From: Porphyromonadaceae bacterium W3.11 | GTDB taxonomy: Bacteria; Bacteroidota; Bacteroidia; Bacteroidales; Porphyromonadaceae | Direction: 5' to 3' | Length of the DNA stretch: 64,000 nucleotides | NCBI GenBank assembly: GCA_030434245.1 | Contig: JAUISX010000001.1 | Span: forward strand, 310,001-374,000 | In this document: piece by piece, positions 7,486-51,752 of the stretch | Numbering within the stretch: the first letter of the stretch is position 1 | Layout of the letters: the number at the start of each line of letters is the position of its first letter | Position numbers and translations under genes: made by a program | The notes under the pieces: generated by a model | Seen by the model: the letters and a program-made list of their open reading frames with translations, nothing else | Told to the model about the DNA's origin: nothing | Database searches by the model: none

Positions 7486-9165
7486 ATGGATAAACACTCT
7501 GAGAAACTATGGCATATTCAAATGCACTTACCAGAGGGGAAAGACGGCATAAGAATCGATCCGAAAGATATGCTCTTAAGAGAAAATCCAGTGATTGGTA
7601 CAGGAGAATGGGACGACCCACAATGTCGGAATTTCAAAGAACTCCCAATTGGGACCATCATATTAGTACGAGAAGGGAAGCATGCCATCGCATTATGTAA
7701 GATCATTAGCGAGTCGTTTACAAGCCATGAATTGCAAGAGAAATTCCTAAATATAAACTATAGAAAAGTAAAAATACTTGGGTTTGTTCCTGATGAGGCT
7801 CAACCACGTCCAACTTTATTTTCTCAGGGGACATTGAAGTCATGTGGTCCTCGGACAGAACAATGGGAGTACATTGATAAATTAATATCTATGATGGAAA
7901 ATAATAAAACGATGGAGAGTTATATCCATCTCTTAAAAGAGAAAAAGAATATCATCTTGCAGGGGGCACCTGGAACTGGTAAGACCTATACCACTGCATC
8001 GATTGCTGTTCGGATGTGTAATAAAGACTTTTCAGACTTTGACAACCACGCAAAAGTCATGAAAGAATATGAGCGTTTACAGGATGCTGGACAAATAGCA
8101 TTTTGTACATTTCATCAATCAATGGACTATGAAGATTTTGTTGAGGGTTTGAAGCCAGAAATCATAGGGAATTCAGTAGAATATAATGTAGAAAGTGGAA
8201 TCTTTAAGAACATCTGTGAAAAGGCTCAAACAAAAGAAGATGTAGATATCATTTCTAGTATTGATAAGTATCTAGAATCTATTAAGGGATTTGAAAACAA
8301 GAAAGTCATCCCAACGATTTCCGGCAAATCAGAGATCTATGTTTGGTGGACAGAAGGGAATAATACCATCAGTACTCGTAGTGTAATCTCAAAGAGTGAA
8401 AAGGGAGAGCAGTACACCCCATCACCACTTAATATAGAAAAAATTAAACTACAAGCTATTGGTGAAGGAAAAGAGAATAATTGGCACCGATACGCCAAAG
8501 CATTTATTAATGCTGTGAAGAAAGAATACCATATTGATAATCAAGTATCTGACAAGCCTTACATCCTTATCATCGACGAAATCAATAGAGGTAATGTCTC
8601 CAAAATATTTGGGGAACTTATCACTTTATTAGAAGCAGATAAGCGTAGTGGTGGAGGAGATCATCATATAAGTTTAAAGTTACCATACTCCAAAGATGAT
8701 TTCTCTGTACCCTCTAATCTATACATCATTGGAACAATGAATACAACGGATAGATCCACAGGTACGATAGACTATGCAATACGCCGTCGCTTTGCCTTTA
8801 TTACCTTGGAGTCAAGTGCTGATGTTATTAGAGAGTCGGTTAATGAGGAGGTTCGTGACATAGCACTAGCTTTATTTGAAGAAATCAATGGAAAATCAAG
8901 AAACGATAAGGATTCTTTTATTGCCAAGCATAAGGCTGCGGACTTTGAGCTTGAGGACTTGAAGGTAGGACACAGCTATTTCATGGCTAAGGATATTGAC
9001 ACCCTTAAGATGAAGATGCGTTATGAGGTCGTCCCTTTGCTAAAAGAGTATATCAAGGATGGTATCCTAAGAGGTATGCAAGGCGATGAAGAATATTTTC
9101 AGAAGTGGATGAATGCAGAGTGTCTTCACACAGGAAGAGCACCTATAATAGGCATGAATGAGTAA
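7486..9165 (+). CDS. mcrB: McrB-like AAA+ ATPase/GTPase subunit of type IV restriction
   Basis: 559 residues. The Walker A motif GAPGTGKT is at about 161-168, Walker B ILIIDEINRGN at about 361-371, and the McrB-type NTTDRSTGTIDYAIRRRF segment at about 419-436. The first 130 residues are not the classical E. coli McrB DNA-binding domain. They include a beta-rich stretch (GTIILVREGKHAIALCKI) that may be a PUA/EVE-like reader of modified bases; this is inference. In McrBC systems the ring-forming NTPase translocates on DNA with modified cytosines and activates McrC. The stop overlaps the start of the next gene (TAATG), which indicates coupled translation. Confidence 0.9.
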   Translation: MDKHSEKLWHIQMHLPEGKDGIRIDPKDMLLRENPVIGTGEWDDPQCRNFKELPIGTIILVREGKHAIALCKIISESFTSHELQEKFLNINYRKVKILGFVPDEAQPRPTLFSQGTLKSCGPRTEQWEYIDKLISMMENNKTMESYIHLLKEKKNIILQGAPGTGKTYTTASIAVRMCNKDFSDFDNHAKVMKEYERLQDAGQIAFCTFHQSMDYEDFVEGLKPEIIGNSVEYNVESGIFKNICEKAQTKEDVDIISSIDKYLESIKGFENKKVIPTISGKSEIYVWWTEGNNTISTRSVISKSEKGEQYTPSPLNIEKIKLQAIGEGKENNWHRYAKAFINAVKKEYHIDNQVSDKPYILIIDEINRGNVSKIFGELITLLEADKRSGGGDHHISLKLPYSKDDFSVPSNLYIIGTMNTTDRSTGTIDYAIRRRFAFITLESSADVIRESVNEEVRDIALALFEEINGKSRNDKDSFIAKHKAADFELEDLKVGHSYFMAKDIDTLKMKMRYEVVPLLKEYIKDGILRGMQGDEEYFQKWMNAECLHTGRAPIIGMNE

Positions 9166-10454: not shown

Positions 10455-11288
10455 TCGACAGAAAAGTCCGACTTCTATATCAGATGTAAGAGCATAGAGG
10501 TAACCTAGTAGTAAGCTAAAAAGCTTTCGAATCAATCCTTTCTTTCAAATTACTGAACGGGACTCTCAAAAGTTCACTATTATTATAACCCTTCCCTAAA
10601 TTGCGTATTGCCGGAAGCAGTATAGGCGTCCATCTTTGTTCCGATGATTTTTCACGGATTGAAGATGGACACTTATATTTTGTTTGAATGCGAGTAATTC
10701 CTTTTCATATGTATTTGTAATATAAGTCAGAGTCAAAAAATTGGAAGGTGACTGAGAGCAATGCATTCTGATAGACGTTCCCTATTAGAGGAAGATAAAT
10801 CTGTAATCCTCAATAAGATGAGTAATACGTTGATCCTAATATACTTAAAGCGTGGTTGCTTGTGACGTCCGTAGGCACTTAGAGTAATGGGATGCATCAC
10901 CATAGGTTATTATCAGTCTTGAAGAATTATCTATTTGTTTGGGTTGTCAACTGATTTTAAGCTAATACTTTCAAAAAGGGCTAATCTTCTCATCATTAAA
11001 TAAGTTGACTTTCAAACAAATACCTTGTTTCCAAACTCTACTTTATAATCATCTCGTGAGGCCTTGCATCCCTTATAATTGGTATTTACGACTAAGAATT
11101 TACCTAGTGATGGGTATTGTGGTTGCTTCTGCATTGTACGAACTTTGCAATGCTTACGAAATGAGTATAAACCCCCGTTGGGAGATAGCTTTTTTATGAA
11201 GATGATGGATATATAAAGTAAGCAAGAAATAAATTCAACTTAACATCAAGCAAATCCCAGACGGCGTATTTATTATAATGAAATTGAA
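10455..11288. other. Long intergenic region
   Basis: About 830 bp with no convincing gene; a 64-codon frame at 11005-11199 has no ribosome site and atypical composition. The one clear element is a nested inverted repeat at 10628-10670 with arms GTCCATCTT/AAGATGGAC and inner TCCG/CGGA, probably the mcrBC terminator or a small structured RNA. The leader and promoter of the following TonB operon must lie in the right half, but no clean TAnnTTTG box is visible. Confidence 0.4.
10628..10670 (+). terminator. Nested hairpin downstream of mcrC
   Basis: GTCCATCTT (10628-10636) pairs with AAGATGGAC (10662-10670), with an inner TCCG/CGGA stem. A T-rich but interrupted tract follows (ACTTATATTTTG), so termination is plausible but not certain. 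Confidence 0.45.
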
Positions 11289-22025: not shown

Positions 22026-23492
22026 TTAATTGGGAATGCGTAGACGCTGACCTGGCTTAATCCTGTCAGACTTCAAGTTATTTGCACGCTTGATGTCTGA
22101 CACGGAGACGCTACGATATTTCTTTGCTATACTGGATAAAGTTTCTCCTCTTCTTACTTTGTGGTATCGTGTTTGTTCTTTGGCTACAGATCTTTTTTCG
22201 GACTGAGCATCACTACTTCTATCTATTTGAGAAGCTCCCTTACTATCACTTAGCTCTAGGGTCAATACTTGCCCGACACTGAGTCTATTGCTACGCAAGT
22301 TATTCCACTCCTTGATATCACTAATGGTCACCCCATAGCGGTGTGCAATCCTAGAGAGGGTCTCTCCACGTGATACTCTATGAACTATATTCTCAACGCG
22401 ACTAGGAGCAATCTCTGGGTCCTTTGCAACAGCAGCTATGAGTGAATCCTTTTTGGTACTAAATTCTATCGCATCAGAAGCCGGAAGGATGAGGACCTGA
22501 GTAGCTGTATTTCCCGGTACAATTTCTCTCTTATACTTCGGATTCAACTCCCTTATAACGTTTATATCTACCTTAGAATATCGACTAAGGTCTGCAAAGT
22601 TTTGCCTTGTATTGATATGTATCGTATCTACAGCAAGCGGTACATGTATCATATTTGGACGGATATCATGCTCGCGATAATGCTCCATGGAGTAAAACGC
22701 AGCGATGAAGAAGGGGACGTATGCTCGTGTCTCGCGAGGGAGATATGGGTAGATGACCCAAAAGTCTTTACTCCCTCCTGCTCTTCTGATCGCTTTATTG
22801 ACGTTCCCTGGACCACAGTTATAAGCTGCTATCGACAGAAGCCAATCACCATATAGAGCGTACATATCTTCAAAATACTTGCACATCGCCTCCGAACTCT
22901 TTTGAGGGTCTCTACGCTCATCAATCAAACTATCTATGTGCAGACCATAAACCTTACCAGTACGCAACATGAATTGCCAAAGTCCTGTCGCCCCCATCCT
23001 ACTGACTGCGGTAGGATTTAGTGCACTTTCGACAATCGCTAAGTATTTTAATTCGAGAGGTAGGTTGTGTCTATCTAAGACATCCTCAATAATGGGGAAG
23101 TAATAGGCAGACTTAGCTAACATATTACTTAGCAAGTTACTCCGTTTATTGACATAAAGGTCTATTGCATCACGAACAATCGGATTATATGTGAGTGGAA
23201 TGGCACTCTCCATTGCTTGTATCCTACCTCTATATAGCTTATCTTTATTATGAATATCTTCACAAGTCACCTCTCTTCTTTTTCTAGACAGAGAGTAATA
23301 ATCTCGATATCTTTTATTAAGCAAGGTATCGAGAGCCATATCAAAGCTTTCTGGTAACCGCCCCAAATCTTCGATGTAGGGTTCGTCTTGGGTTCTTATA
23401 GAATCACTTTGAGCGAATGCTATATTGAAGCTTATAAGATTAAATAATATATAAATGGTTAGGGTTAGCGATAGCTTTCTGTATATCTTCAT
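22026..23492 (-). CDS. mltD: Membrane-bound lytic murein transglycosylase with LysM domains, MltD-like
   Basis: 488 residues. A signal peptide is followed by an SLT-type catalytic domain with AIVESALNPTAVSRMGATGLWQFM (catalytic Glu in VES) and AAYNCGPGNV. Two LysM repeats follow, at about 367-412 and 443-487 (HRVSRGETLSRIAHRYGV and HKVRRGETLSSIAKKYRS). It cleaves peptidoglycan glycan strands with formation of anhydromuramic ends. It is last of a leftward cluster with DUF5683-like, parB and parA genes, 15 bp after the first of these. Confidence 0.92.
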   Translation of the reverse strand: MKIYRKLSLTLTIYILFNLISFNIAFAQSDSIRTQDEPYIEDLGRLPESFDMALDTLLNKRYRDYYSLSRKRREVTCEDIHNKDKLYRGRIQAMESAIPLTYNPIVRDAIDLYVNKRSNLLSNMLAKSAYYFPIIEDVLDRHNLPLELKYLAIVESALNPTAVSRMGATGLWQFMLRTGKVYGLHIDSLIDERRDPQKSSEAMCKYFEDMYALYGDWLLSIAAYNCGPGNVNKAIRRAGGSKDFWVIYPYLPRETRAYVPFFIAAFYSMEHYREHDIRPNMIHVPLAVDTIHINTRQNFADLSRYSKVDINVIRELNPKYKREIVPGNTATQVLILPASDAIEFSTKKDSLIAAVAKDPEIAPSRVENIVHRVSRGETLSRIAHRYGVTISDIKEWNNLRSNRLSVGQVLTLELSDSKGASQIDRSSDAQSEKRSVAKEQTRYHKVRRGETLSSIAKKYRSVSVSDIKRANNLKSDRIKPGQRLRIPN

Positions 23493-23507
23493 AAAAATTT
23501 ATTACAC

Positions 23508-24245
23508 TTAAAACGTCAACGCAATATGGAGTCCATATCCATTAGCCTGTGTTATAGGAGATGGAGACGGGATAACAGCTGGTGCGTATGACAGTGAGAG
23601 GTCAGGAGAGATATCAAAGTTATGCAACTCTGCATCAACATATGAATCGATCATTACTAGGGCATATACAGCCACCGATATGATAATACTCATATCACGG
23701 TAGCGTCTAAAGTAGTCACGCCCTCTCTTCAATTGATCATGAAAGGATGTATTATTAATATAATCTTCAGGATTTGCATTGTAAGGCAGAAAGTCTTTCC
23801 ATGTGTCAAAATCCATAGGTCTATCACTCTTAATCTCCTTGAAGGCTGTAGTGTATTCCTGAAGGTTAGCATTATTCCATGATATGGCATAGTAACACGC
23901 AGTGTAAGCACCGATAATGATAGGAATTTTCCAATACTTCCTATTATATATCTGTCCGCCTCCAGGAATGATAGAGAAAAGGACTGCCTTCGTAGAGTTC
24001 AGTTCGTAAGGCTTTCTCTTGGTAACTGTCTTAGTCGCAACCTCTACTTCTTTCTTCTGAGCTTCCAACAAGACACTATCATTCTCGACAATGTCGATAG
24101 TATCTCTTAGAGAAGGCATAGATAAGAATGTGCTCGCCAACTCGTCTGTGGTCGCATCATCCAAGGACTCCATGGCACTGGATAGGGCTAGCGACATCAA
24201 TATGAAAATAAAAGCGAGGACTACTTTTCTCATACGGAGCTTCAT
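23508..24245 (-). CDS. DUF5683-like membrane protein
   Basis: 245 residues. An N-terminal signal (MKLRMRKVVLAFIFILMSLALSSA) precedes a linker and then a P-S-K-A-type block, here ELNSTKAVLFSIIPGGGQIYNRKYWKIPI with small hydrophobic helices, which is the hallmark of the family. The end resembles outer-membrane strand sequence (YGLHIALTF). It overlaps the parB stop by 4 bp. Function is unknown; its steady place beside parAB and mltD in this phylum suggests a link to envelope growth or division. Confidence 0.8.
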   Translation of the reverse strand: MKLRMRKVVLAFIFILMSLALSSAMESLDDATTDELASTFLSMPSLRDTIDIVENDSVLLEAQKKEVEVATKTVTKRKPYELNSTKAVLFSIIPGGGQIYNRKYWKIPIIIGAYTACYYAISWNNANLQEYTTAFKEIKSDRPMDFDTWKDFLPYNANPEDYINNTSFHDQLKRGRDYFRRYRDMSIIISVAVYALVMIDSYVDAELHNFDISPDLSLSYAPAVIPSPSPITQANGYGLHIALTF

Positions 24246-25147
24246 AGTCTATCAAGCAAAGAGATGATTTTCTCCATCTGATCAGCAGATTCAAATGGAA
24301 TAGTTATTTTGCCCTTACCCTCGTCATTGCATGTAAAGGAGACCTTTGTATCAAATAGAGAACTAAACCTATTGCTCAAAAGGTCAAAGGCTTCATTAGT
24401 CCTCTTAGCTCTCCTCTTAGGGCGATTATCACTAGTACTCTCGTCACCTTGATTATAGTCTTTTACCAGTTGTTCAACCTGACGCACAGATAACGCATCC
24501 TTAAGGATCTGCTCATAAAAAGCCAGTTGAAGTTCAGGATCCTCTATAGATAGAAGAGATCTAGCATGACCCATTGAGATCTTACCATTCTTTAGAGCCA
24601 TCTGTATTTCGGCTGGGAGTCTTAGCAGTCTAATGTAATTAGAAATTGTAGCCCTCTTCTTACCGACTCTACGACTCAGTTCATCTTGTGTAAGATTGTT
24701 ATGATCAAGTAGGTTTTTGAAGGCAAGAGCTATCTCTATCGCATTCAGATCCTCACGCTGAATATTCTCAATGAGTGCCATCTCCATAATCTGCTCATCA
24801 GCAGGAGTACGGATATAAGCAGGCATAGTCTCGAGTCCAGCCAGCTTAGCAGCTCTATATCTACGCTCACCGCTTATGATACGATATTTCCCCTCTTTCT
24901 CGGGAAGTTCATAGACCGTGATAGGCTGCACCAAGCCAATATGCTCAATAGAGGACGCCAACTCTCTCAATGACTCCTCATCAAAGTCAGTTCGAGGCTG
25001 ATCCTCATTAGGTGTAATATCTTGAATAGGGACTTCATTTATAGAGGACGACCCCTGGGTCTCGATATCAACATCAGTTGATATTAAAGCATCCAACCCA
25101 CGCCCTAAAGACCTCCTTGAATTCTTTCCCATAGCAACATTTCCCAT
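24242..25147 (-). CDS. parB: Chromosome-partitioning protein ParB
   Basis: 301 residues; an internal start at MGKNS (25132) is equally possible. It has the LGRGLDALI N-terminal box, the CTPase/ParB core (ITVYELPEKEGKYRIISGERRYRAAKLAG), the ENIQREDLN motif and a helix-turn-helix near TQDELSRRVGKKRATISNYIRLLRLP. ParB binds parS sites near the origin and slides as a clamp. No canonical parS (TGTTTCACGTGAAACA) is seen in this window. It lies downstream of parA with a 62-bp gap. Confidence 0.95.
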   Translation of the reverse strand: MGNVAMGKNSRRSLGRGLDALISTDVDIETQGSSSINEVPIQDITPNEDQPRTDFDEESLRELASSIEHIGLVQPITVYELPEKEGKYRIISGERRYRAAKLAGLETMPAYIRTPADEQIMEMALIENIQREDLNAIEIALAFKNLLDHNNLTQDELSRRVGKKRATISNYIRLLRLPAEIQMALKNGKISMGHARSLLSIEDPELQLAFYEQILKDALSVRQVEQLVKDYNQGDESTSDNRPKRRAKRTNEAFDLLSNRFSSLFDTKVSFTCNDEGKGKITIPFESADQMEKIISLLDRL

Positions 25148-25209
25148 TTATAACTGTACAATAGATTAATACATCTTCGGCGTATTCAGAATGGATACGC
25201 TATAAGCAA

Positions 25210-25980
25210 TCATTTTTTATTATTCTTCTCCAACAACTCTTTGCCAAGCTGCAGATAGTTTTGACTTCCCCTACTATCTAGGTCAAAATCCAAAACAGAC
25301 TTCCCAAAGCTTGGTGCTTCACTAAGTCTTACATTCCTATGAATAACACTCGTAAATACTAGGTTTTTGAAGTGTTTCTTCACCTCTTCATATACTTGAT
25401 TAGAGTGTCGGGTTCGGGCATCATACATCGTCATCAGAAAGCCTTCAATCTCAATATCTGGATTGAGACGCTTCTTGATGACTTGCAGAGTCGTCAGAAG
25501 TTTGCTAATACCCTCCAATGCAAAATATTCACATTGGACTGGGATAATAACAGAGTCCGCAGCAGTAAGAACTGCTACCGTGGTTAATCCCAAGCTGGGC
25601 GAACAATCAATAAGAATAAAATCATAATCATCCTTAAGCTGATCAGTCACCTTCTTCATGACGAATTCCCTCTGTGGGAATCGCACCAGTTCCACCTCAG
25701 CTCCAGCAAGATCACCATGTGAAGGCAAAATCATCAACCCCTCCACTGAGGTCTCGACAAGACACTCTCTCGGATCAGCTTCCCCAAGAAGACAATTATA
25801 GATTGACACATCAGGAGAGGTGGCCTGTACCCCAAGACCACTGGTAGCATTAGCCTGAGGGTCAGCATCTATGATCAATACTTTTTTCTCTAAGGCTGTA
25901 AGCGAAGCTGCCAGGTTTATCGTGGTAGTAGTTTTGCCAACCCCACCTTTCTGATTCGATATTGCTATTACCTTTCCCAT
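25210..25980 (-). CDS. parA: Chromosome-partitioning ATPase ParA (Soj)
   Basis: 256 residues, the usual size for chromosomal ParA. The deviant Walker [15 protein letters not shown] is at about 10-23, Walker A' as [13 protein letters not shown], and Walker B as [15 protein letters not shown]. It forms dynamic DNA-bound gradients that move ParB-parS complexes. It is first of the parAB-DUF5683-mltD cluster. Confidence 0.96.
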
Positions 25981-26315
25981 CTACTCAATATTAATGATCA
26001 AATTCATTCTACAAAAATAATGAAATCCAAGGAGAGCAGCAAAAGTCCGCTTATACAGTAATCACTCTAATCTATTAAAATAGATAGCTTTTCTATAAAT
26101 ATCCATAACAACTACTACTTTATGGACCACCTCATATTTGACCATTGCGACTTAATCATGCGGCACCTTCGCGATATACTGCGATATATCGCACTCCACA
26201 TTTAGTAAGAATTAGAGATTGGGCAAAGGCCTTAACAACACTCATTTCGTTGTAAACTTCGGAGCTCTTCTATTCTATCCATCGTGCCACCTCTCAGCGG
26301 ATGCTTTCTACAACA
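25981..26315. other. Intergenic region between mutY and parA
   Basis: No gene is seen; a 60-codon frame from 26301 is the shadow of mutY. It holds a 14-bp perfect palindrome TGCGATATATCGCA (26180-26193) with a second GCGATATA 10 bp to the left at 26171. The parA promoter should lie near its left end. Confidence 0.4.
26171..26193. promoter_or_regulatory. Palindrome with repeated GCGATATA
   Basis: GCGATATA occurs at 26171 and 26181, one helical turn apart, the second within TGCGATATATCGCA. It may be a protein-binding site upstream of parA; it does not match parS. Confidence 0.3.
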
Positions 26316-27416
26316 TTATTTAGGGAAATAGTTGTCCAAAAATTGCCGAAGGGGCTTAGGAAATGCGAGCTTATCATGCTCTCTAATGAGATGTTTCTGA
26401 TACTTGCCCTCCAGCTCAGTAGAAAGGAGTTCAGAAACATGCACACAGATGCTAATAAGGCGATGAGTCAGTCGATGAGGTGACAGATCAACGTGCTCTA
26501 GCACTCTAGCTTTGTTATCTAGCCTCTCCTCCACCTCACTAGGCGTCATATTACGCTCCAAGCTTTCCACTAGAGGTAATTGATATAAACCCTTCCAAAT
26601 GCCTTTCTTATCACGCTCCTCGACATAAAAGTAGTCGCCATCTATCAGCAGGAAGTAATCCATGAATAGAGGAGTCACCTTAGTACTCTTTGATTTAATC
26701 GGAAGCAATGAGGTCAGCTCTAGATTATTACAGCTTTCACAATATTTGGCAATGGGGCATTCGTCACAAGAGGGGGTTCGTGGTTTGCAAATCATAGCCC
26801 CAAGATCCATGATCGCTTGGTTATAAAGTGATGGATCTTCTTTATCTAGGTATAAATCTGCTAACTCTCGATAAAACTTCTGACCATAAGTTTCATCGAT
26901 AGGCACTTCATAAGCCCCCACACGACTGAGGACACGATAAACATTACCGTCCACGACCGCAAAAGGCTGATCATAAGCTATACTCATTATGGCAGCAGTC
27001 GTGTAGGCGCCTACTCCTTTGAGATTCGCCACATCTTTTGACTCGGTGGGGAAAATCCCCCCATGTGATTCTACTATTTGTTTTGCTGCGTGATGTAGAT
27101 TCAGCGCACGACTATAATAACCGAGTCCCTGCCACATCAGCATGACCTCATCCTCTGGAGCTGCTGCTAGATCGCTTACAGTGGGATACCTCTCGATAAA
27201 TCGCAAATAATAATCCCAACCCTGCACCACCTGAGTCTGCTGTAGAATGACCTCTGAGAGCCATATCCTATATGGATCTTTCGTCTCTCGCCAAGGCAAG
27301 GCCCTACCATACAGCTTAAACCAATTCGTTAGAGCTGTACGAAAAAGACTCAGCCTCACCTCTGGAATAGATACCGCAGGGAGCTGAGTCTTACTTTTAA
27401 TATTCTTCTTAGCCAA
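26316..27416 (-). CDS. mutY: A/G-specific adenine glycosylase MutY
   Basis: 366 residues. The helix-hairpin-helix/glycosylase core reads LKGVGAYTTAAIMSIAYDQPFAVVDGNVYRVL with the catalytic Asp in VDGNV. The [4Fe-4S] ligands are C-x6-C-x2-C-x5-C (CKPRTPSCDECPIAKYC). A NUDIX-like C-terminal domain that reads 8-oxoG follows. It removes adenine mispaired with 8-oxoguanine. It is transcribed leftward; the 167-bp gap to prs holds no gene. Confidence 0.95.
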   Translation of the reverse strand: MAKKNIKSKTQLPAVSIPEVRLSLFRTALTNWFKLYGRALPWRETKDPYRIWLSEVILQQTQVVQGWDYYLRFIERYPTVSDLAAAPEDEVMLMWQGLGYYSRALNLHHAAKQIVESHGGIFPTESKDVANLKGVGAYTTAAIMSIAYDQPFAVVDGNVYRVLSRVGAYEVPIDETYGQKFYRELADLYLDKEDPSLYNQAIMDLGAMICKPRTPSCDECPIAKYCESCNNLELTSLLPIKSKSTKVTPLFMDYFLLIDGDYFYVEERDKKGIWKGLYQLPLVESLERNMTPSEVEERLDNKARVLEHVDLSPHRLTHRLISICVHVSELLSTELEGKYQKHLIREHDKLAFPKPLRQFLDNYFPK

Positions 27417-34685: not shown

Positions 34686-37600
34686 ATGAATAGCACCATC
34701 CTTGACAACTCGACTAACCTATTATCAATGTCAAATACATTGAAAAGGTGTTTAAAATTAGATACAATTAAAAATGTACGGATTGCAACGGGCTACTGGG
34801 ACATACCGGGGCTTGCCCTTATTACTGATGAGTTGTCAGATTTTTTACAAAGAGAGGGAACTCGCTTTCAATTACTTATTGGCAAAGACCCTAACATATA
34901 CGCGTATCAAGTAAAGAATCCTAAATACAAAGATGCCAATTACCCTCACGATTTTATAAGGACTGACATTAACAACCTAGAAGTCAAGGAACAATACAAA
35001 AAAGCTATAGATCTGCTACTCACCTACTGCACCGAGGAGGAAGATAGTAAAGTACAAATCAGAATCTACAAGAGGAATGAAAATGAGGAAATACAATTCC
35101 TGCACTCCAAGTGCTACATTTTTGATGGGGTATCAGAAGAAACTGGTGAAGAAACGGGATATGGGATTATTGGCAGTTCTAACTTCACACAAAAAGGTCT
35201 TCAAGACAATTCAGAACTAAACTACTTAGAGTCTAACTATTTACAAGTAATGTCTCCCGGCATGTATAATACTTCTAAAAAAAGCCACTCTAGTTGGTTT
35301 AATGAAAAATGGGAAATGTCGGAAAAATGGAATCAAGTATTCTTAGAGCAAGTCCTCAAACCAACTCCTCTCGCAGAGATCGTCACCAAAGAGAAACAAG
35401 CTCTAGAAACATCACTCACACCATATGAGATTTACATCAAGTACCTTCAATCCCAATTAGGTGATATTGCTAATCCAGATGCCTACGAAATCTTGTCTTC
35501 ATACTTACCAAAACATTATCAGGCTATGACCTTTCAGCTAGATGCTGTTCAGCAATGCTTCTTTATTATGAAGCAGCATGGAGGATTTCTTTTAGCTGAT
35601 GTGGTAGGATTAGGCAAAACCATTGTAGGACTATTAATCATCAAAAAGTTTATTACTGAAGCTTCACAGCTCCATCGCTCTCCTAACGTATTAATTGTAA
35701 CCCCACCTGCTATTAAGAAGTCATGGGAGAGTACTATTCAAGACTTTGATAATAATACTACTGACAAAATGGCTCCATACATTGACTTTATCACGACTGG
35801 TAGTATCGGAAAGCTTAATGATTTAGCTGATGACGAGCTAGATATGATCAATGAGGACTATTTTGAAGATGACTTCTCCTCTAATGATTACGGACTAATC
35901 ATCATTGATGAAAGCCACAACTTTAGAAATAGCAATACACAGAAATACAAAGCCCTTGATAATCTCATTGGGAACATTCATTTACAAAAGGGGTATTGCC
36001 CCTTTATCGGCTTATTATCTGCTACTCCCATGAATAATACACCTGACGATATCAAGAATCAAATATATCTTTTCCAAAGGACACCTAATAATAGCTCATT
36101 ACCTAATATCGAAGGTGGAAAACTAGATACGTTTATGAGCAAAATGCAGAAAGAGTTCACAAAATATCGTAAAGAAGATTCTACTGAAGCTCGTGAACAA
36201 CTCAAACATATCTCCAATGAGATTAGGGTTAGGGTATTAAATGACCTTGTCGTTCGTAGGACCAGACGTGACATCAAGAAGACCTATGCCAGCGAAAGTG
36301 CTCATCTTAATTTCCCAACAGTTTGTCCTCCTCATAAATTAGAATACAAACTAGATTCGATCCTCTGTCGGCTCTTTGCTGATACCATTGATGCTATAGT
36401 TCCTCCTGGTGATGAACTCTTAGAAATTGATACTCGTAAACACATTGGATTTTATAGATACTCTGCTATTCAGTTTTTTAAGTCAGATGAAAATACCAAG
36501 ATCTATGAAAGTCGTAACCTTACGGTAGATAGTATCTCCTCTAGATTGGCACAAATCACGCGAATACTCTTGGTAAAGAGGTTGGAAAGTAGCTTCTCAG
36601 CGTTCAAGAAATCTCTGCATAATTTACAGCGCTTCACTCAAAATATGATTGATATGCTACAGAGTGATTGTGTCTATATCTGCCCAGACATGGACATCAA
36701 TAAAGAGATCATAAAAGCCGGAACTCTTCAAAAAGCAATGCCCATAATCGACAAGAAAATGGTAAAGTATGGAGGAAATAATAGGAAGTTTAGGACCTCA
36801 GACTTTAAAGATGAATACCTTTCCTTACTCCAGCAGGATATGAATCTTATTAGTGATCTATGTAAGAGATGGGATGAAAATGACTTTGACCCTAAGTTAG
36901 ATACTTTCAAACAGCATTTAAATAAGACTCTTTTTGATAAGGAAATAAACAATCCTAATGGCTATGACAAACCCCGATTAGTTATATTTACAGAAGCTCT
37001 TGACACATTAAATACATTGGCTCGTCATATTCAAAATCGAGGACATAGAGTCCTAAAGGTATCGGCTAAAAACAGAATGCAATTACAAAAGGATATCATT
37101 GAAAACTTTGATGCCAACTCCGATATCCAAAAAGATGATTATGATGTCATTGTGACTACTGAGGTTCTTGCGGAAGGGGTCAACTTACATCGTGCCAATG
37201 TGATTCTCAATTATGACACACCGTGGAATGCGACTCGCCTAATGCAGCGAATAGGAAGAGCCAATCGTATTGGTTCCAAAGAAGAAATGATCCACGTATT
37301 TAACTTCTACCCTTCTCCTGAGGGAAATCAAGAGATCATGCTAATAGAAATAGCCTATGCGAAACTACAGTCATTCCATATTATGTTTGGAGATGATAGC
37401 AAGGTATTCAATGAACTTGAAGAGATTTCTGAGGCTGACTTCAATCGTCTCATTGATGGCGAGGAGTCTCCATTCTTCGAATATATTAAGGACCTCAAAG
37501 ATTATCAAGAAGCTAACCCTGATAGGTTCAAAAAGTTACAAGAAGTAGAGATGAAGAATCTAGGTTGTTCCACTCATGAACACGCAGATCAGTCATTAGT

Positions 37601-38093
37601 CGTCATTGGGGCTGAGAATAGAGGATTGACCAATGTTCAAATAAATAACGACGAGGCGAAAGTCATAGCACCGCTCTACGCTATGCAATTCCTTAAGTGC
37701 TCACCAATGACGAACGGCTTAAGACTTCCTCTGTCCGAATATCACAAAGACATGGCCTTCACTGCTTATCACCAACATATAACACGGATGAAAAAAGCAA
37801 AAGAATCTAATAAAACGATCAAAGAGGCAATGGTCATCCTAAAGAAAAAAATAGAGCCATTCCTACATAGTAATGATGCAAAACAAATTTCAAAAAAGGT
37901 AGATAACGCTCTTAGACAGAATAATATTACAGTCGCAAATAAGCTGATAAAATTTGACAAAGAATACAAATACTCTCTATTTGGCGTTGACTATGATTTT
38001 GAAGCTTGGATGAGCGACACATTCGGTAAGATAGCAAAACAGTCCAAAGCAAAATATGGTCAGCCATATATAGCCCTATATGAAAACAAATAA
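34686..38093 (+). CDS. PLD nuclease-SNF2 helicase fusion, restriction component
   Basis: 1135 residues. Residues about 1-190 form a phospholipase D-type nuclease domain: an HSKCYIF (H-x-K) motif at about 139 and GIIGSSNFTQKG at about 160. An SF2/SNF2 helicase follows: LADVVGLGKT at about 302, IIIDESHNFRN at about 405, LLSATPMNN at about 443, VTTEVLAEGVNLHRANVI, and QRIGRANRIG at about 852. PLD nucleases with translocating helicases act in the NgoAVII and CglI restriction systems, where they are separate chains; here both are in one protein. The next gene, 23 bp downstream, is the methyltransferase. The pair would cut DNA lacking the cognate methylation. Confidence 0.88.
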   Translation: MNSTILDNSTNLLSMSNTLKRCLKLDTIKNVRIATGYWDIPGLALITDELSDFLQREGTRFQLLIGKDPNIYAYQVKNPKYKDANYPHDFIRTDINNLEVKEQYKKAIDLLLTYCTEEEDSKVQIRIYKRNENEEIQFLHSKCYIFDGVSEETGEETGYGIIGSSNFTQKGLQDNSELNYLESNYLQVMSPGMYNTSKKSHSSWFNEKWEMSEKWNQVFLEQVLKPTPLAEIVTKEKQALETSLTPYEIYIKYLQSQLGDIANPDAYEILSSYLPKHYQAMTFQLDAVQQCFFIMKQHGGFLLADVVGLGKTIVGLLIIKKFITEASQLHRSPNVLIVTPPAIKKSWESTIQDFDNNTTDKMAPYIDFITTGSIGKLNDLADDELDMINEDYFEDDFSSNDYGLIIIDESHNFRNSNTQKYKALDNLIGNIHLQKGYCPFIGLLSATPMNNTPDDIKNQIYLFQRTPNNSSLPNIEGGKLDTFMSKMQKEFTKYRKEDSTEAREQLKHISNEIRVRVLNDLVVRRTRRDIKKTYASESAHLNFPTVCPPHKLEYKLDSILCRLFADTIDAIVPPGDELLEIDTRKHIGFYRYSAIQFFKSDENTKIYESRNLTVDSISSRLAQITRILLVKRLESSFSAFKKSLHNLQRFTQNMIDMLQSDCVYICPDMDINKEIIKAGTLQKAMPIIDKKMVKYGGNNRKFRTSDFKDEYLSLLQQDMNLISDLCKRWDENDFDPKLDTFKQHLNKTLFDKEINNPNGYDKPRLVIFTEALDTLNTLARHIQNRGHRVLKVSAKNRMQLQKDIIENFDANSDIQKDDYDVIVTTEVLAEGVNLHRANVILNYDTPWNATRLMQRIGRANRIGSKEEMIHVFNFYPSPEGNQEIMLIEIAYAKLQSFHIMFGDDSKVFNELEEISEADFNRLIDGEESPFFEYIKDLKDYQEANPDRFKKLQEVEMKNLGCSTHEHADQSLVVIGAENRGLTNVQINNDEAKVIAPLYAMQFLKCSPMTNGLRLPLSEYHKDMAFTAYHQHITRMKKAKESNKTIKEAMVILKKKIEPFLHSNDAKQISKKVDNALRQNNITVANKLIKFDKEYKYSLFGVDYDFEAWMSDTFGKIAKQSKAKYGQPYIALYENK

Positions 38094-38116: not shown

Positions 38117-41100
38117 ATGAAAACGACAGAATACGCCCTAAAGGAGCAATTTGAAAAAGTTTTTATAGACGATTTCAAAAGCATAGAAGTTATAGAGAAC
38201 AAAATCATCAAACCGATTTTTGAAGATGATTACCATTCCTTCAGCAAGAACCCAGAGAGAATTTATACGGGAGAAAACAAAAATAATAAAGGCTCTACCA
38301 TACATTCCATTTACCATATAGGCACCATAAATAGAGTAGGACTAGACCCTGTCGAAGTCTTCGACATAACCGTTAATGATAAGTCCAATCTATCTCATTC
38401 AAGAGCGAATATCCAGAAAATCATCCGCAGCGAACTATTCTACTATTCACATGCCTTTATGATTTTCCATCATCAATCACCCATCGGTAGAGAATGGCGA
38501 TTCTCCTATCTTTACAAGCAAGAGACACTTAAGTCTATCACGGATGCAAAGAGGTATACCTACCTCTTTGGTAAGGAACAGCATTGCCGGACTGCCATAG
38601 ATAGATTCTATACTTTGGCTTCTAGCAAAAAAGATAACCAAGCACTCATTGACGCCTTTTCTGTCGAGGCACTAACCAAACAATTCTACAACGATCTCTT
38701 TGAGTGGTATCTATGGGCTATTGATCCTAAAGTAAATATTACCTTTCCTAATAATACTAACATACCAGAAGATGATCGAGAGAAAATTGATCTTCAGATC
38801 ATTCGACTCATCACCCGAATCATGTTTGTATGGTTCATCAAACAAAAAGATTTGGTCCCAGATCTTCTTTTTGATCCAGAAAAGCTTAGAGTAATACTTA
38901 AGAATTTTCAGCCGTTAGATTCATCATCAGGTATATATTATAACGCCATCCTCCAAAACCTATTTTTTGCTACCTTAAATCGTGCCATTGAGGATGAAAA
39001 TGGAGAGAAAAGGCACTTTGCAAAAGCAAAAAATAGTCGTGATGCCAAAACATTATATAGATACGCAGAGCTATTTAATATCTCTGAAGATGAAGTAATA
39101 AATATTTTTGCAGAGGTTCCTTTTCTTAATGGAGGGCTTTTTGAATGTTTGGATAAATCACGCACTATTGATGGGGTTGATGTCGCCTATAATTTTGATG
39201 GCTTTAGTCGTAATGAGCAAAAGTTTCCAGACGGTCGCTACAAGCATAGAGCATTTATTCCTAACCATCTCTTTTTTACTCCAGATAAAGGACTCTTTTC
39301 TATCTTATCACGCTATAACTTCACCATTGAAGAAAGCACTCCTATAGAGCAGCAAGTCGCTCTCGATCCTGAACTTTTAGGGAAAGTATTCGAAAACCTT
39401 TTAGGCGCTTATAACCCTGAAACAAAAGAGACGGCACGTAACCAAAGCGGCTCTTTCTATACCCCTAGGGAGATTGTACATTATATGGTGAATACATCCC
39501 TCATCGAATATTTAGGACGGACACCAATAGTAGAGTCATTATTCTCTGACACATTCGAAAGAGATAATGATAAAGAAGAGGAATACAATGCTATTGCACA
39601 GAAGCTCAAGAATGTTAAAATCATAGACCCAGCTTGTGGATCAGGGGCGTTCCCTATGGGATTGCTCAACCAAATGGTTGATATCCTTCAGAAGATACAC
39701 CCTGACAAAAGTTTGTACCAATTAAAACTAAAAATCATTGAGAATTGTATCTATGGTGTAGATATTCAGAGCATCGCTGCACAAATCACCAAGCTCCGAT
39801 TCTTTATTTCTCTAATATGCGACTGCGAAAAGGATCCAAATACTAAGAACTTTGGCATCCCTATTCTCCCTAACCTTGAAACAAAGTTTGTAGTGGCAGA
39901 TTCACTAATAGGCAAAAAAGAAAATCAAAACTCTCAACCGAGTTTTTTCGACAATCCTGAGATTCAAGAGACGAAGGATAAATTAATAGAGATACGTCAG
40001 CAACACTTCCTAGCTAAATCAGCATCAGAGAAACGAGAATTAAGAACTATTGATGAACAACTAAGAGCGAAATTGGCCCAGCTCTTATCTGAAAACGAGG
40101 GTTTACCTGCTGAGGATGCAGAACAGCTAGTCCATTGGAATCCTTACGACCAGAATGCAGTAAGTCCTTTTTTTGATCCAGAGTGGATGTTTGGGATTAA
40201 TAATGGTTTTGATATTGTCATTGGGAACCCTCCTTATGTGCAATTACAAAATAACAAAGGAGAGTTAGCTGAAAGATACAAAAAGTATAACTATAAGACC
40301 TATGCCCGAACTGGAGACATTTACTGCCTCTTCTATGAAAGAGGTTATCAACTGCTTAAGAACCGAGGACACTTATGTTTTATCACATCGAATAAATGGA
40401 TGCGTGCTGGATATGGTGAGAAAACTCGAGGCTTCTTGGCGGAAAATAGTAATCCTAAACTATTGATTGACTTTGCAGGAGTAAAGATATTTGAAAGTGC
40501 GACAGTAGATACCAATATTCTTCTTTTTGAAAAAAGCCCTAATAAAAAGCAAACAACATGTGCAGTGACCACCAAAGAGGATAAAAATAGCATTAATGAT
40601 TTGAGCGTTTTCGTTCAGCAAGCTAAGGTAACCTGTGCATTCAGCTCCTCTGATAGCTGGGTCATTCTATCTCCGATAGAGCAAAGCATCAAGCGTAAGA
40701 TAGAAGCCGTGGGTACACCTCTCAAGGATTGGGATATAAATATATATAGAGGGGTCCTTACTGGTTGTAATGAGGCTTTTATCATTTCTACTGATAAACG
40801 AAACGAGATCCTATCCAATTGTGAATCAGAGGAGGAACGTACGCTTACGGAGGAAATTATACGACCAATTTTACGAGGCCGTGACATTAAGCGTTTTGGT
40901 TACGAATGGGCTAATCTGTGGCTAATTTGGATACCATGGCATTTTCCTCTTCATTTAGATGAAAATATAACTGGAGCTTCAAAAAAAGCAGAAAGAGCAT
41001 TAGAAAAACAGTATCAATCCTTGTATAGACATCTATTAAAATTCAAAGATGCATTATCAAATCGTAATAAAGCGGAAACTGGAATTCGCTATGAATGGTA

Positions 41101-41539
41101 TGCACTTCAACGCTGGGGTGCTAAGTATTGGGAGGATTTTAGTAAACCAAAAGTAATGTGGAAAATCATAGGTAATAACATTAACTTTTGTTATGATGAA
41201 GAATCTATGATTTGTAACAATGCTGTAAATATTATGACTGGAGAACGAAACACATTAATTCAATTCGTTGGGTTAATGAATAGTCAATTATTTGACTGGT
41301 ACTTGAAAATTACAACAGAAGCAGAAGTTCAAGGAGGGGGTATTCAATTATATGTTACTACGTTGGAAAAAACATTATTGAAGTTAGATTTTCAGCAAAG
41401 TCTGACTGACATTGTATATAAAAGGATTATGGGTGAGGCATCCGATATTAGCGTTGATGACGCAGTCTTTGAGGCATATGGACTAACGAAAGAAGAGACA
41501 ATATTTATTGGTAACTATAACAAAATGAATAGAGATTGA
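38117..41539 (+). CDS. Eco57I-like adenine-N6 methyltransferase with switchable recognition domain
   Basis: 1140 residues. Motif I is IDPACGSGAFPMGLL at about 502-516, the catalytic motif is GNPPY at about 702-706, and SGSFYTPREIVHYMV precedes them. A TaqI/Eco57I-like C-terminal DNA-recognition region follows from about residue 830. The N-terminal 450 residues are long, without a clear PD-(D/E)XK motif; cleavage probably comes from the PLD-helicase partner. Codon 829 marks the start of a 61-bp perfect inverted repeat whose partner opens an oppositely oriented cassette downstream. The present C terminus (about 311 residues) is thus one of two alternatives. Modification specificity should change when the segment inverts. 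Confidence 0.92.
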   Translation: MKTTEYALKEQFEKVFIDDFKSIEVIENKIIKPIFEDDYHSFSKNPERIYTGENKNNKGSTIHSIYHIGTINRVGLDPVEVFDITVNDKSNLSHSRANIQKIIRSELFYYSHAFMIFHHQSPIGREWRFSYLYKQETLKSITDAKRYTYLFGKEQHCRTAIDRFYTLASSKKDNQALIDAFSVEALTKQFYNDLFEWYLWAIDPKVNITFPNNTNIPEDDREKIDLQIIRLITRIMFVWFIKQKDLVPDLLFDPEKLRVILKNFQPLDSSSGIYYNAILQNLFFATLNRAIEDENGEKRHFAKAKNSRDAKTLYRYAELFNISEDEVINIFAEVPFLNGGLFECLDKSRTIDGVDVAYNFDGFSRNEQKFPDGRYKHRAFIPNHLFFTPDKGLFSILSRYNFTIEESTPIEQQVALDPELLGKVFENLLGAYNPETKETARNQSGSFYTPREIVHYMVNTSLIEYLGRTPIVESLFSDTFERDNDKEEEYNAIAQKLKNVKIIDPACGSGAFPMGLLNQMVDILQKIHPDKSLYQLKLKIIENCIYGVDIQSIAAQITKLRFFISLICDCEKDPNTKNFGIPILPNLETKFVVADSLIGKKENQNSQPSFFDNPEIQETKDKLIEIRQQHFLAKSASEKRELRTIDEQLRAKLAQLLSENEGLPAEDAEQLVHWNPYDQNAVSPFFDPEWMFGINNGFDIVIGNPPYVQLQNNKGELAERYKKYNYKTYARTGDIYCLFYERGYQLLKNRGHLCFITSNKWMRAGYGEKTRGFLAENSNPKLLIDFAGVKIFESATVDTNILLFEKSPNKKQTTCAVTTKEDKNSINDLSVFVQQAKVTCAFSSSDSWVILSPIEQSIKRKIEAVGTPLKDWDINIYRGVLTGCNEAFIISTDKRNEILSNCESEEERTLTEEIIRPILRGRDIKRFGYEWANLWLIWIPWHFPLHLDENITGASKKAERALEKQYQSLYRHLLKFKDALSNRNKAETGIRYEWYALQRWGAKYWEDFSKPKVMWKIIGNNINFCYDEESMICNNAVNIMTGERNTLIQFVGLMNSQLFDWYLKITTEAEVQGGGIQLYVTTLEKTLLKLDFQQSLTDIVYKRIMGEASDISVDDAVFEAYGLTKEETIFIGNYNKMNRD
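40602..40662 (+). repeat. 61-bp inverted repeat, left copy (inversion site)
   Basis: Identical over 61 bp to the reverse complement of 42486-42546; weaker similarity continues to about 40737. It lies in the same reading frame in both copies (S-V-F-V-Q-Q-A-K), so recombination keeps the frame. Confidence 0.95.
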
Positions 41540-41541
41540 AA

Positions 41542-41686
41542 ATTATTGGTGTCCGATAAACATACTTAACTCATTGAAAATCAAAATAGTTTTTATGAGA
41601 AAAGCCCTGCTTTTTAATTCTTGTATAAGAAACTATAATCCAATTAATTATGAGAATTATTAAGATTTTTGCCGGACACCAATAAT
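41542..41686. repeat. 145-bp element with 14-bp terminal inverted repeats
   Basis: ATTATTGGTGTCCG (41542-41555) and CGGACACCAATAAT (41673-41686) are perfect inverted copies. They start 3 bp after the methyltransferase stop and end directly at the cassette stop. The interior encodes nothing. It could be a MITE-like element or shared 3' flank of the two cassettes. Confidence 0.65.
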
Positions 41687-42547
41687 CTAAATACGTGATT
41701 TAATATACATTATCTCTTCATCAGTAAAGCCATATAATATAAATATTTCTTTAGTAATAGAAAAATCCACATTAGATACTTTTGGTAACGGCAAATTTTC
41801 TAAGAAAGTTTTTTTGTATCGAAAACCATCATTACCTAATCCACCTCCAGCATAAAAATACTTAAAGAAGAATGCAATAACCTTTGAGTTTAATAGTTGT
41901 ATCAAATCATGCAGATTATTTCCTGTAATTATAAATGAGGTAGCCTCTGGGAAAAATGTTCCATCTTTATCTAAATAAAATTGTGGTTCTCTAACAATTT
42001 CACTATAAATAATTTTCGGCTTAAAAAATTCCTCCCAATAACTTATACTATCTTGCGTCTCAAACCACTTGTTATTAGTCTTTTTTCGAGACTTGACTTG
42101 TTCTCCATTTACGATGTGAGTTTTTCCAGTCTGCTCCAATCTTTCTACACCGAACGATAGTAAATATTTTTTTATTGCTGGATAATCTTCTATATCATAT
42201 CTTTTTGAAGGAAATGTAGCAATCAGCCATAAATCTGCCCAATCATAGCTGTATCGTTTTATATCGCGGCCTCGTAAAATCGGTCGTATAATTTCCTCCG
42301 TACGCTTACGTTCCTCATCTGTCTCGCAGTTTGAAAGAATTTCATCTCTTTTTTCAGTAGAAATGATAAAAGCATCATTATACCCAGTTTTTATGCCATA
42401 GTTGATTTGAATATCCCAATCCTTGAGAGGGATACCCACGGCTTCTATCTTACGCTTAATACTCTGCTCTATCGGAGATAGGATAACCCAGCTATCAGAG
42501 GAGCTGAATGCACAGGTTACCTTAGCTTGCTGAACGAAAACGCTCAC
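41687..42547 (-). CDS. Silent alternative recognition-domain cassette of the methyltransferase
   Basis: 286 codons with no methyltransferase catalytic part. From residue 2 on it aligns with the C terminus of the upstream enzyme: near identical over the first 45 residues (VFVQQAKVTCAFSSSDSWVI...) and again around EEIIRPILRGRDIKR, but different in the intervening and later recognition segments (FPSKRYDIEDYPAIKKYLLSFG versus the active copy). The only start is a GTG whose last two bases begin the inverted repeat, overlapping the recombinase stop (GTGA). It may be untranslated or weakly coupled. Inversion would place it after residue 829 of the methyltransferase, giving a 1114-residue variant. 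Confidence 0.88.
   Translation of the reverse strand: MSVFVQQAKVTCAFSSSDSWVILSPIEQSIKRKIEAVGIPLKDWDIQINYGIKTGYNDAFIISTEKRDEILSNCETDEERKRTEEIIRPILRGRDIKRYSYDWADLWLIATFPSKRYDIEDYPAIKKYLLSFGVERLEQTGKTHIVNGEQVKSRKKTNNKWFETQDSISYWEEFFKPKIIYSEIVREPQFYLDKDGTFFPEATSFIITGNNLHDLIQLLNSKVIAFFFKYFYAGGGLGNDGFRYKKTFLENLPLPKVSNVDFSITKEIFILYGFTDEEIMYIKSRI
42486..42546 (-). repeat. 61-bp inverted repeat, right copy (inversion site)
   Basis: Perfect reverse-complement match to 40602-40662. A second, imperfect block of similarity is at about 42255-42316 versus 40832-40893. The segment between the two 61-bp copies is about 1.8 kb. Confidence 0.95.
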
Positions 42548-43155
42548 TTCTCTAACTCCATAAAATTCTTAATATATCGAGCTAAAGTGTTTCTATCTAC
42601 TTTACATATCTTGGCTATTTTCCTCTGAGAAACATTAGCATTTAACAACTCTCTAATCAATGTTTCCTTGCCATATAACTTATACTTCTCGGGGGAACTC
42701 TTACGTCCTTTAGGGCGTCCAAGAACGACCCCTTCAGCTTTCTTTCTAGCCAATGCCTCCTTTGTTCGTTGAGAAATCAAATTACGTTCAATCTCAGCAC
42801 TTAGCCCGAAAGCAAAAGCAAGCACTTTACTCTGAATGTCATCACCAAGTCTATAATTGTCTTTGATGGTCCAGACACGACACTCCTTATTCATACATAA
42901 CCCGAGTATCTCCATAATCATAAAAAGATTACGACCCAATCTTGAAAGTTCGGCACAAATGATAAGATCATCCTTCGTCATCTTTCGCAGCAAGTTCCCT
43001 AATGCTCTTTTATTATAAGACTTCGTACCTGATATGGTCTCTTCAATCCAACCATCAATCTCTAAGCCCTCTCTCTGACAGAAATTATTAATTTCAAATC
43101 TCTGATTCTCAACTGTCTGCTTGTCGCTACTGACGCGAATGTATCCGTATATCAT
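42544..43155 (-). CDS. Serine recombinase (DNA invertase/resolvase family)
   Basis: 203 residues. The N-terminal catalytic domain has YIRVSSDKQTVENQ with the active Ser10-type serine, then LSRLGRNLF and GLSAEIERNLISQRTKEALARKKAEG, and a C-terminal helix-turn-helix (NVSQRKIAKICKVDRNTLARYIKNF). Size and order match Hin/Gin-type invertases. It lies just outside the right inverted repeat, whose first bases are its stop codon, so it is not itself inverted. Inference: it catalyses the flip between the two 61-bp repeats. Confidence 0.93.
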   Translation of the reverse strand: MIYGYIRVSSDKQTVENQRFEINNFCQREGLEIDGWIEETISGTKSYNKRALGNLLRKMTKDDLIICAELSRLGRNLFMIMEILGLCMNKECRVWTIKDNYRLGDDIQSKVLAFAFGLSAEIERNLISQRTKEALARKKAEGVVLGRPKGRKSSPEKYKLYGKETLIRELLNANVSQRKIAKICKVDRNTLARYIKNFMELEK

Positions 43156-43262: not shown

Positions 43263-44320
43263 TAACGCGAGTTCGATTTAAGCAACTGTAGCAAGAGCCT
43301 TTTTATCAATGATTTCAAGATTTAAAGACGGCTTTTTGGGCATTAAGTTATATGTGAGTAACCCTGAGACCAGGTTGACTACGAAGTTATTGACACTGCG
43401 ATGTCTCGTATGTTCTATTTGGCATACATTCTTTAAGAGATCATTGACGGTTTCTATGATGGATCTCTTTCGAAGGAGTATTTTATCATGAATATGCATT
43501 AGAGCATTCTTCATATTCTTCTTAAGCTTTGTAATCAAGTGAATATCATCAATAAAAAGCTTGTCAAATAGACTTTTTGAGATATATCCTCTATCCGCTA
43601 TGAGCTTACCAAAGAGTTTCTTAGAGTTAGAGAAGGAGTCATCCTTTAGTGGTGCTCTGTCATCTATATCACCTGTAGTGATCTGATAAGTGATGATCTC
43701 GCCTTTGTCATTAATGACAAGATGCAGTTTAACCTATAAAATCAACCCCTCAAACCTCACTAACTGTGGAGCGACCTTTCTGTGCACAACCTTTCATCGT
43801 CTTATGGCTTCTTTCCCGTTTGATATGGCAAGCTCTTAAAGGGGTAGAGTCAATGAAAGAAACACCTGTACACTTTTCTAAGTAGCACATATTGAGAAAC
43901 ATAACAAGCTTTAGCCCCACTTTAGTTTGGAGTTCGACAAAACGATTATAGGAGACTTTTTGAGGAAATTCACTTTTAAGATGAACGTGAATAAATTTGA
44001 GATAGAAGGACTTGAGGTCTCAATATCTTGACATGTGAAAAAGTATGAGTATTGTCATGACCTCACTGTCTGAAAGACGTGATTTCCTTTTTCTTCTCTT
44101 CTTCTCTTCTTTCCTCCTTGTTCTATAGCATTCTCAGAAACAACACGATCAAAATGAATAGAGAAATCGTCGATAATACAAAATAATTCTAGTATACTTG
44201 TCATCATAAAAGTGGTGTTTTATTTGTTCGTAATTATCTGTTAATCAATTACTAATATACAAATAACTCACCGCTTTTCCTAATATATTTCCTTTGATTT
44301 CTTACATCGAACTCGCGTTA
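43263..44320 (-). mobile_element. Decayed IS982-like insertion sequence
   Basis: 15-bp perfect terminal inverted repeats TAACGCGAGTTCGAT (43263-43277) and ATCGAACTCGCGTTA (44306-44320) bound a 1058-bp element with a single degraded transposase. No clear target duplication is seen. It sits upstream of the recombinase gene, 108 bp from its start. Confidence 0.85.
43278..44207 (-). pseudogene. IS982-family transposase, frameshifted
   Basis: Read from ATG 44207, the frame opens MMTSILELFCIIDDFSIHFD but shifts after about 35 residues. The expected SRLSDSEVMTILILFHMSRY lies in another frame and is cut by a TGA. FIDSTPLRACHIKRERSHKTMKGCAQKG is intact, then a stop and a second shift precede VKLHLVINDKGEIITYQITTGD, and the last part runs to ALATVA. 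The DDE elements (FIDST, IADRGY, RSIIETV) are recognisable. With at least two shifts and two stops it cannot make an active enzyme. Confidence 0.85.
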
Positions 44321-51170: not shown

Positions 51171-51752
51171 ATGAGAATCCTCTGCATATCTGATACACAT
51201 AGCCAGCACCAATTATTAGGAGCACTCCCTATGGCTGATGTCTTGGTGCATTGTGGCGATGTGTCTAAGAGAGGTACGGAAAGTGAAGTCATAGACTTTA
51301 TGCAATGGTTTTGCGACCAACCTCACCAGTACAAGATATTTATTGCAGGTAATCATGACCTAAGCCTATATGGCTCCAATATTAGCGGTTTACCAGAAAA
51401 CTGCTTTTATCTGAATACTAGTGGAGTGGAGATAGAAGGGCTACACTTTTATGGGATACCACTATTTGTGAATGATGTAGTCTCAGGTGAATACAGCAAA
51501 TCTATACAATCCATTCCTCCCAATACTGATGTACTCATTACACACCAACCTCCACATGGCATTCTCTCCTCTGATTATGGAGACGTGGAGCTATTAGAGC
51601 GGGTAACGCTTATAGGTCCGAAGTTACATCTATATGGCCATGCTCATGAGTGCTATGGTGTCAAGACTAGCTTTGGTACTCATTTTGTGAATGCGGCACT
51701 ATTAAATAACCAATATGAGTTGACGTTTAAGCCCCTATTAATTGAGCTTTAA
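51171..51752 (+). CDS. Metallophosphoesterase
   Basis: 193 residues, a single calcineurin-like phosphoesterase domain. Metal-binding motifs in order: ISDTHSQH (D-x-H), VHCGDVSK (G-D), FIAGNHDLSLY (G-N-H-D/E), LITHQPPHGIL and LYGHAHECYG (G-H-x-H). It hydrolyses phosphomono- or diesters; the natural substrate cannot be told. The stop codon is directly followed by an IS relic. Confidence 0.88.
   Translation: MRILCISDTHSQHQLLGALPMADVLVHCGDVSKRGTESEVIDFMQWFCDQPHQYKIFIAGNHDLSLYGSNISGLPENCFYLNTSGVEIEGLHFYGIPLFVNDVVSGEYSKSIQSIPPNTDVLITHQPPHGILSSDYGDVELLERVTLIGPKLHLYGHAHECYGVKTSFGTHFVNAALLNNQYELTFKPLLIEL

Follow-up and report, generated by a model that had tools for sequence, protein, structure and literature searches.

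A PLD-SNF2-linked methyltransferase locus with a predicted invertible recognition domain in a Porphyromonadaceae bacterium

Inverting specificity genes and the closest described loci

Changes of sequence specificity by DNA inversion are known for type I hsdS genes and for pglX of BREX systems. In phase-variable BREX, an adenine methyltransferase receives a different C-terminal recognition part through the inversion, as is predicted for the locus described here, which lies in a 64,000-nt stretch of contig JAUISX010000001.1 (the window, to which coordinates refer unless another sequence is named). However, the methyltransferase of the window scored far below the PglX cut-off (103.6 bits against 500), and no pglZ, brxC or other BREX hits were found among the 20 neighbouring proteins scanned. 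Milman et al. reportedly described, in 2023, programmed inversions that alter type II restriction-modification (R-M) genes. At inverting type I loci (e.g. SpnIII, PMC4948785), inversion between repeats likewise swaps recognition domains, but these belong to a separate specificity subunit, whereas here the methyltransferase's own C-terminus would be exchanged in the company of a serine invertase. In a 2025 review, the sections on type II phase variation deal with simple-repeat switching only (PMC12456177).

The first of two closer precedents is found in Prevotella intermedia 17F, where a type IIG gene (22231–25584 of that sequence) lies tail-to-tail with a second gene on the complementary strand (25608–26525), with an SNF2 helicase gene upstream (PMC5608340). 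When the first gene was cloned alone, the motif GGYGAB was obtained, and addition of the second gene yielded nothing more; the strain also displays GGNYAG and CCNYAG, which were assigned to no gene (PMC5608340). This pair, Pin17FIII and Pin17FORF9595, resembles the present locus in its type IIG gene of about 1117 codons (calculated from the coordinates), its reversed gene of about 305 codons and its upstream helicase. However, neither an inversion nor an invertase is mentioned in the accessible part of that report, and our comparison relies on the coordinates and gene descriptions given in the publication. The additional motifs would be accounted for by an inverting cassette if the reversed gene were inactive alone and specified another motif once joined to its partner. 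Such a reinterpretation offers a testable reason for the unassigned motifs of P. intermedia 17F, and perhaps for those of Rikenella microfusus.

The second precedent is the Lactococcus lactis plasmid pLd8, which carries orf33 (PLD-SNF2), orf34 (type IIG without a nuclease), orf35 and the resolvase gene tnpR; the original report presents them as a static system and draws a comparison with DISARM (PMC6098607). The plasmids pJM1F and pUCCL629A share this composition of a PLD-SNF2 helicase, a nuclease-less type IIG enzyme, a further open reading frame and a resolvase, and in pJM1F a reversed TaqI_C gene and an Mpi invertase are annotated. The Lactococcus systems differ from ours in that the constant part of their methyltransferase is only about 33% identical to that of the window, and inversion is not mentioned for pLd8 in the sections of the report that were accessible. 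In the window itself, DISARM class 1 was rejected, as DrmD gave 125 bits against a cut-off of 610 and no Drm hits occurred among the 20 neighbouring proteins scanned. The original prediction had known of no inverting specificity gene on an Eco57I-like enzyme paired with a PLD-SNF2 helicase. This still holds for the inversion, which the accessible portions of the two reports (PMC5608340 and PMC6098607) do not describe, but not for the gene arrangement, which had already been published. Inverting specificity is of a known kind, of which the form linked to PLD-SNF2 and associated with Mpi constitutes a widespread variant; we found no paper that describes its inversion.

Anatomy of the locus and its in-silico inversion

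The helicase, methyltransferase, reversed cassette and recombinase reading frames are all open. The helicase gene (34686–38093, plus strand) encodes 1135 aa with the Pfam domains PLDc_2, SNF2-rel_dom and Helicase_C (PADLOC family HKD+Snf2), including one HKD motif (HxKx4D...GSSN) at residue 140, the Walker A sequence GLGKT at 308 and DESH at 408. The co-directional methyltransferase gene (38117–41539, plus strand) encodes 1140 aa with Eco57I, N6_Mtase and C-terminal TaqI_C domains, with type IIG as the top PADLOC family; these family assignments bear out the predicted pairing of an Eco57I-like enzyme with a PLD-SNF2 helicase. A structure model of the methyltransferase (1140 residues, mean pLDDT 74.5) was matched by Foldseek to CamA, BrxX, M.BseCI and MmeI. 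With TM-scores as low as these, the model lends support to the fold family but not to the arrangement of the domains. The silent recognition domain, searched separately, matched no PDB chain by sequence.

The protein thus has the fusion of an Eco57I-type N6-adenine methyltransferase to a target-recognition domain (TRD) that characterizes type IIG enzymes, but no nuclease family was hit in the same polypeptide. In addition, no conserved (D/E)xK motif was present in the aligned N-terminal stretch of 25 methyltransferase relatives, and the PLD domain of the partner helicase is therefore the likely nuclease. Since cells could survive a change of specificity only if restriction and methylation shared the methyltransferase's TRD, it fits that the Pfam search of the helicase returned no TRD family.

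Downstream of the constant part, the expressed TRD cassette (residues 830–1140; 40604–41536, plus strand) is followed by a silent, reversed cassette of 286 aa (41687–42547, minus strand), which also has a TaqI_C domain. A MITE-like repeat of 147 bp with terminal inverted repeats (41540–41686, no strand assigned) occupies the whole interval from one TRD stop codon to the other. Five genome copies of it cover at least 142 of the 147 bases, and it is probably a passenger within the invertible segment. The recombinase gene (42544–43155, minus strand) encodes a 203-aa protein with a Resolvase domain, and its score of 343.7 bits against the NCBIfam master DNA invertase Mpi family exceeds the cut-off of 272, which places it in that family.

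A repeat search and a sequence check confirmed that a 61-bp sequence (40602–40662, plus strand) recurs perfectly and inverted at 42486–42546 (minus strand). These arms bound a segment of 1,945 bp (40602–42546) and are embedded in a 145-nt inverted repeat of 92% identity (40593–40737 and 42411–42555), followed by a 168-nt one of 79%. A perfect inverted match of 61 nt within 10 kb is not a chance event. As had been noted, the recombinase gene ends within the first bases of the repeat, its TGA stop codon (42546–42544, minus strand) being the repeat's first three bases. When 40602–42546 was inverted in silico, the frame was kept and an uninterrupted protein of 1114 aa replaced that of 1140 aa, in agreement with the claim that the reversed cassette carries an alternative C-terminal recognition domain in the matching frame. 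The locus thus has inverted repeats flanking alternative recognition domains that are joined in frame upon inversion. The original prediction had further placed the swap after residue 829, with products of 1140 and 1114 residues and no frameshift. The frame, both lengths and the cassette start at residue 830 were correct, but residues 830–866 are identical in both forms because the arms stay homologous, and the first amino acid to differ is 867.

On the basis of this anatomy, we propose a two-gene R-M system in which sequence specificity would be switched by DNA inversion. The Eco57I-like protein, bearing the TRD, would methylate adenine, and the co-directional PLD-SNF2 helicase would act as a translocating nuclease that attacks unmethylated DNA chosen via the same recognition domain. 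The adjacent Mpi-family invertase would recombine two GAGCGTTTTCGTTC sites, one at either end of the 1,945-bp segment, and thereby join the reversed cassette in frame to the constant part, altering the protein from residue 867 and its length from 1140 to 1114 aa; the motif that is methylated and restricted would presumably change at the same time. As a consequence, cells of one clone would not all share the same methylome, nor would they restrict the same phages and other DNA.

Putative crossover site and opposite orientations in close relatives

Alignment of 15 loci at the putative crossover site yielded the consensus GAGCGwTTTyGTkCrGCA (core GAGCGwTTTyGTkC), and the corresponding cores GAGCGTTTTCGTTC of the window would lie at 40603–40616 (plus strand) and 42532–42545 (minus strand). 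It forms an imperfect dyad centred on TT, as would befit a serine invertase. In its degenerate form, the site is present at exactly three positions in the window's genome, including two at this locus; we estimate that about 0.3 additional sites would be expected by chance. Mpi of Bacteroides fragilis, which belongs to the same invertase family, flips 13 regions, seven of which are capsule promoters (PMC4747536); in contrast to these many targets, the window's site is essentially confined to this locus. Identity between the arms of a locus is 98% in the first 20 nt and 89% in the 40 nt that follow, compared with 77% and 49% for these stretches between loci. This concerted evolution of the arms is expected if exchange between them continues.

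With 61 bp of perfect identity and 145 bp at 92%, the arms of this locus would also have sufficient length for RecA-dependent homologous recombination, which could flip the segment with the invertase being incidental, and an exchange away from the site, at an inner repeat, did occur in one locus (L142, see below). We nevertheless regard this route as very unlikely. In L066 and L071 the arms agree over only about 20–24 bp at the site (in L066 over ATTGAGCGATTTTGTTCGGT, with divergence on both sides), the site sequence is common to Bacteroidales and Lactococcus, and all complete cases have an invertase of one family beside the cassette, on either strand. These observations point to the adjacent invertase as the probable agent.

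Both cassette orientations were observed in close relatives. The Lactococcus plasmids pJM1F and pUCCL629A each carry the helicase, the methyltransferase, the reversed open reading frame and the same Mpi protein (WP_021164920.1), and their helicase-methyltransferase parts are 93.0% identical over 6.7 kb. The TRD expressed in pJM1F matches the silent one of pUCCL629A (99.2% over 496 bp), and the silent TRD of pJM1F matches the expressed one of pUCCL629A (85% over 535 bp). The outer flanks are stationary, and the inner sequence changes over at GAGCGATTATGT. Two further plasmids, pUCCL635A and pLLUC147A, keep one TRD, with no annotated silent cassette or invertase, and the switch is accordingly dispensable.

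A second pair, L142 and L143 from IMG/VR, is 99.1% identical over 7.1 kb with the cassette flipped, such that the TRD expressed in L142 occupies the silent, reversed position in L143 (99.4% over 541 bp). The enzyme of L142 is of a type IIG class that contains DUF7149 and DUF7814 domains, and a search for the helicase in L143 gave no hit. The TRD of L142 (11716–12371 of that sequence) is a chimera in which the N-terminal half of one cassette and the C-terminal half of the other are joined at an inner YWEDF repeat, with an insertion sequence following it, and the expressed TRD of L143 (10599–11562) is interrupted. At a greater distance, the Prevotella denticola locus (L061) carries the window's expressed TRD in the silent position (73% identity over 310 aa, ungapped), and the TRD expressed there is similar to the N-terminal half of the silent TRD of the window. 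A search of IMG/VR with the window's own repeat for a second strain gave no match; we infer that the segment flips in this strain as well.

Distribution of the layout and its host enzymes

A methyltransferase constant part followed by a forward TRD, a reversed TRD and an Mpi-type invertase was found in at least 17 other loci (L042, L045, L054, L061–L064, L066, L071, L076, L077, L097, L114, L115, L136, L140 and L143), and L038/L135 show the same layout with irregularities. Prevotella and other Bacteroidales are among the carriers, as are Elusimicrobiota, Ignavibacteriae and Victivallales. In most of these loci the PLD-SNF2 helicase gene lies upstream, and in-silico inversion gave long in-frame products in most of the relatives tested. 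Among the genome_contigs loci that have a helicase and 3′ sequence of 2.5 kb or more, the repeat and invertase were present in 5 of the 6 with methyltransferase identity of at least 50%, compared with 3 of 27 below 50%. The inversion switch therefore characterizes one clade, with a scattered occurrence elsewhere. In 14 genome_contigs relatives, a contig ends within 300 bp of the constant part; these were not taken to prove flipping, as an assembly is interrupted by any repeat that exceeds the read length. Caution is generally warranted, since assemblies break at such loci or freeze one orientation.

These loci also bear on whether the reversed open reading frame might be a dead TRD duplicate, with the repeat reflecting leftover homology or conservation at the protein level and nothing flipping. 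Cassettes are indeed broken in L038 and L143, and some plasmids lack a silent cassette. However, a dead duplicate would hardly be joined in register by an open frame in most loci, nor have an invertase beside it in all loci with the layout, arms that evolve in concert and opposite orientations in close relatives, and we consider this explanation very improbable. Alternatively, the reversed frame could be translated together with the invertase as a stand-alone recognition subunit acting in trans without inversion, since the invertase stop codon overlaps the cassette start (GTGA in the window; ATGA in L042, L054, L062, L064 and L097). The invertase gene, however, has the opposite direction in L071, L114, L115, L140 and Lactococcus, which precludes such coupling there, and the reversed gene of P. 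intermedia, alone or with the methyltransferase, added no motif when cloned, according to the accessible part of the report (PMC5608340). A subunit acting in trans is therefore scarcely credible.

An inverting two-gene R-M system, with the adjacent Mpi-family invertase most likely as its agent, is very probably the best explanation of the locus. This specificity-swapping switch, as originally predicted, is supported by the protein families, the in-frame inversion, the conserved site, the concerted arms, the conservation of the locus and the opposite orientations in relatives. It would extend inversion switching to a widespread two-gene system of an Eco57I-like methyltransferase and a PLD-SNF2 helicase, and its paired TRDs lend themselves to studies of which residues determine the motif.

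There is about an even chance that, in Bacteroidota, Lactococcus and other phyla, a TRD pair and an Mpi invertase together form a portable switching module on unrelated Eco57I-type enzymes, namely PLD-SNF2-partnered enzymes and the DUF7149/DUF7814 type IIG enzymes, for which no helicase was found. The TRDs would then be bipartite and the specificities combinatorial, with site-specific inversion swapping whole TRDs and a rarer exchange at the inner repeat swapping C-terminal halves.

Several loci showed additional features. L038 (G009), which was excluded from the clean cases, has an expressed TRD that is truncated, and it carries three sites (10114, 11783 and 11884 of the reverse complement). 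Inversion via the inner right-hand site would give a TRD of 307 residues and via the outer one 53 residues only, making an on/off state possible. In Prevotella nigrescens (L172, NZ_CP082843.1, 9740–14077), two reversed partial genes annotated as Eco57I and an Mpi invertase lie after a helicase-methyltransferase pair, and inverted repeats occur at 8057–8103 and 10748–10794; this is perhaps a multi-cassette version with its crossover inside the catalytic domain. Another Mpi-like recombinase of the window's genome, with 72% identity, has DUF3164 and AAA_22 genes as neighbours (G000:C2:505420-506010; L048 8208–9050), surroundings that suggest a Mu-like prophage, and a third (45%) is present in five near-identical scattered copies. 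A likely remnant insertion sequence adjoins the invertase gene (43263–44320), with 23-bp inverted ends (43263–43285 and 44298–44320) and a DDE_Tnp_1_3 transposase fragment (43281–43538). Elsewhere in the window, the open reading frame at 26316–27416 matched the PADLOC type II nicking endonuclease family (4.5e-33), and that at 51171–51752 matched PDC-S10.
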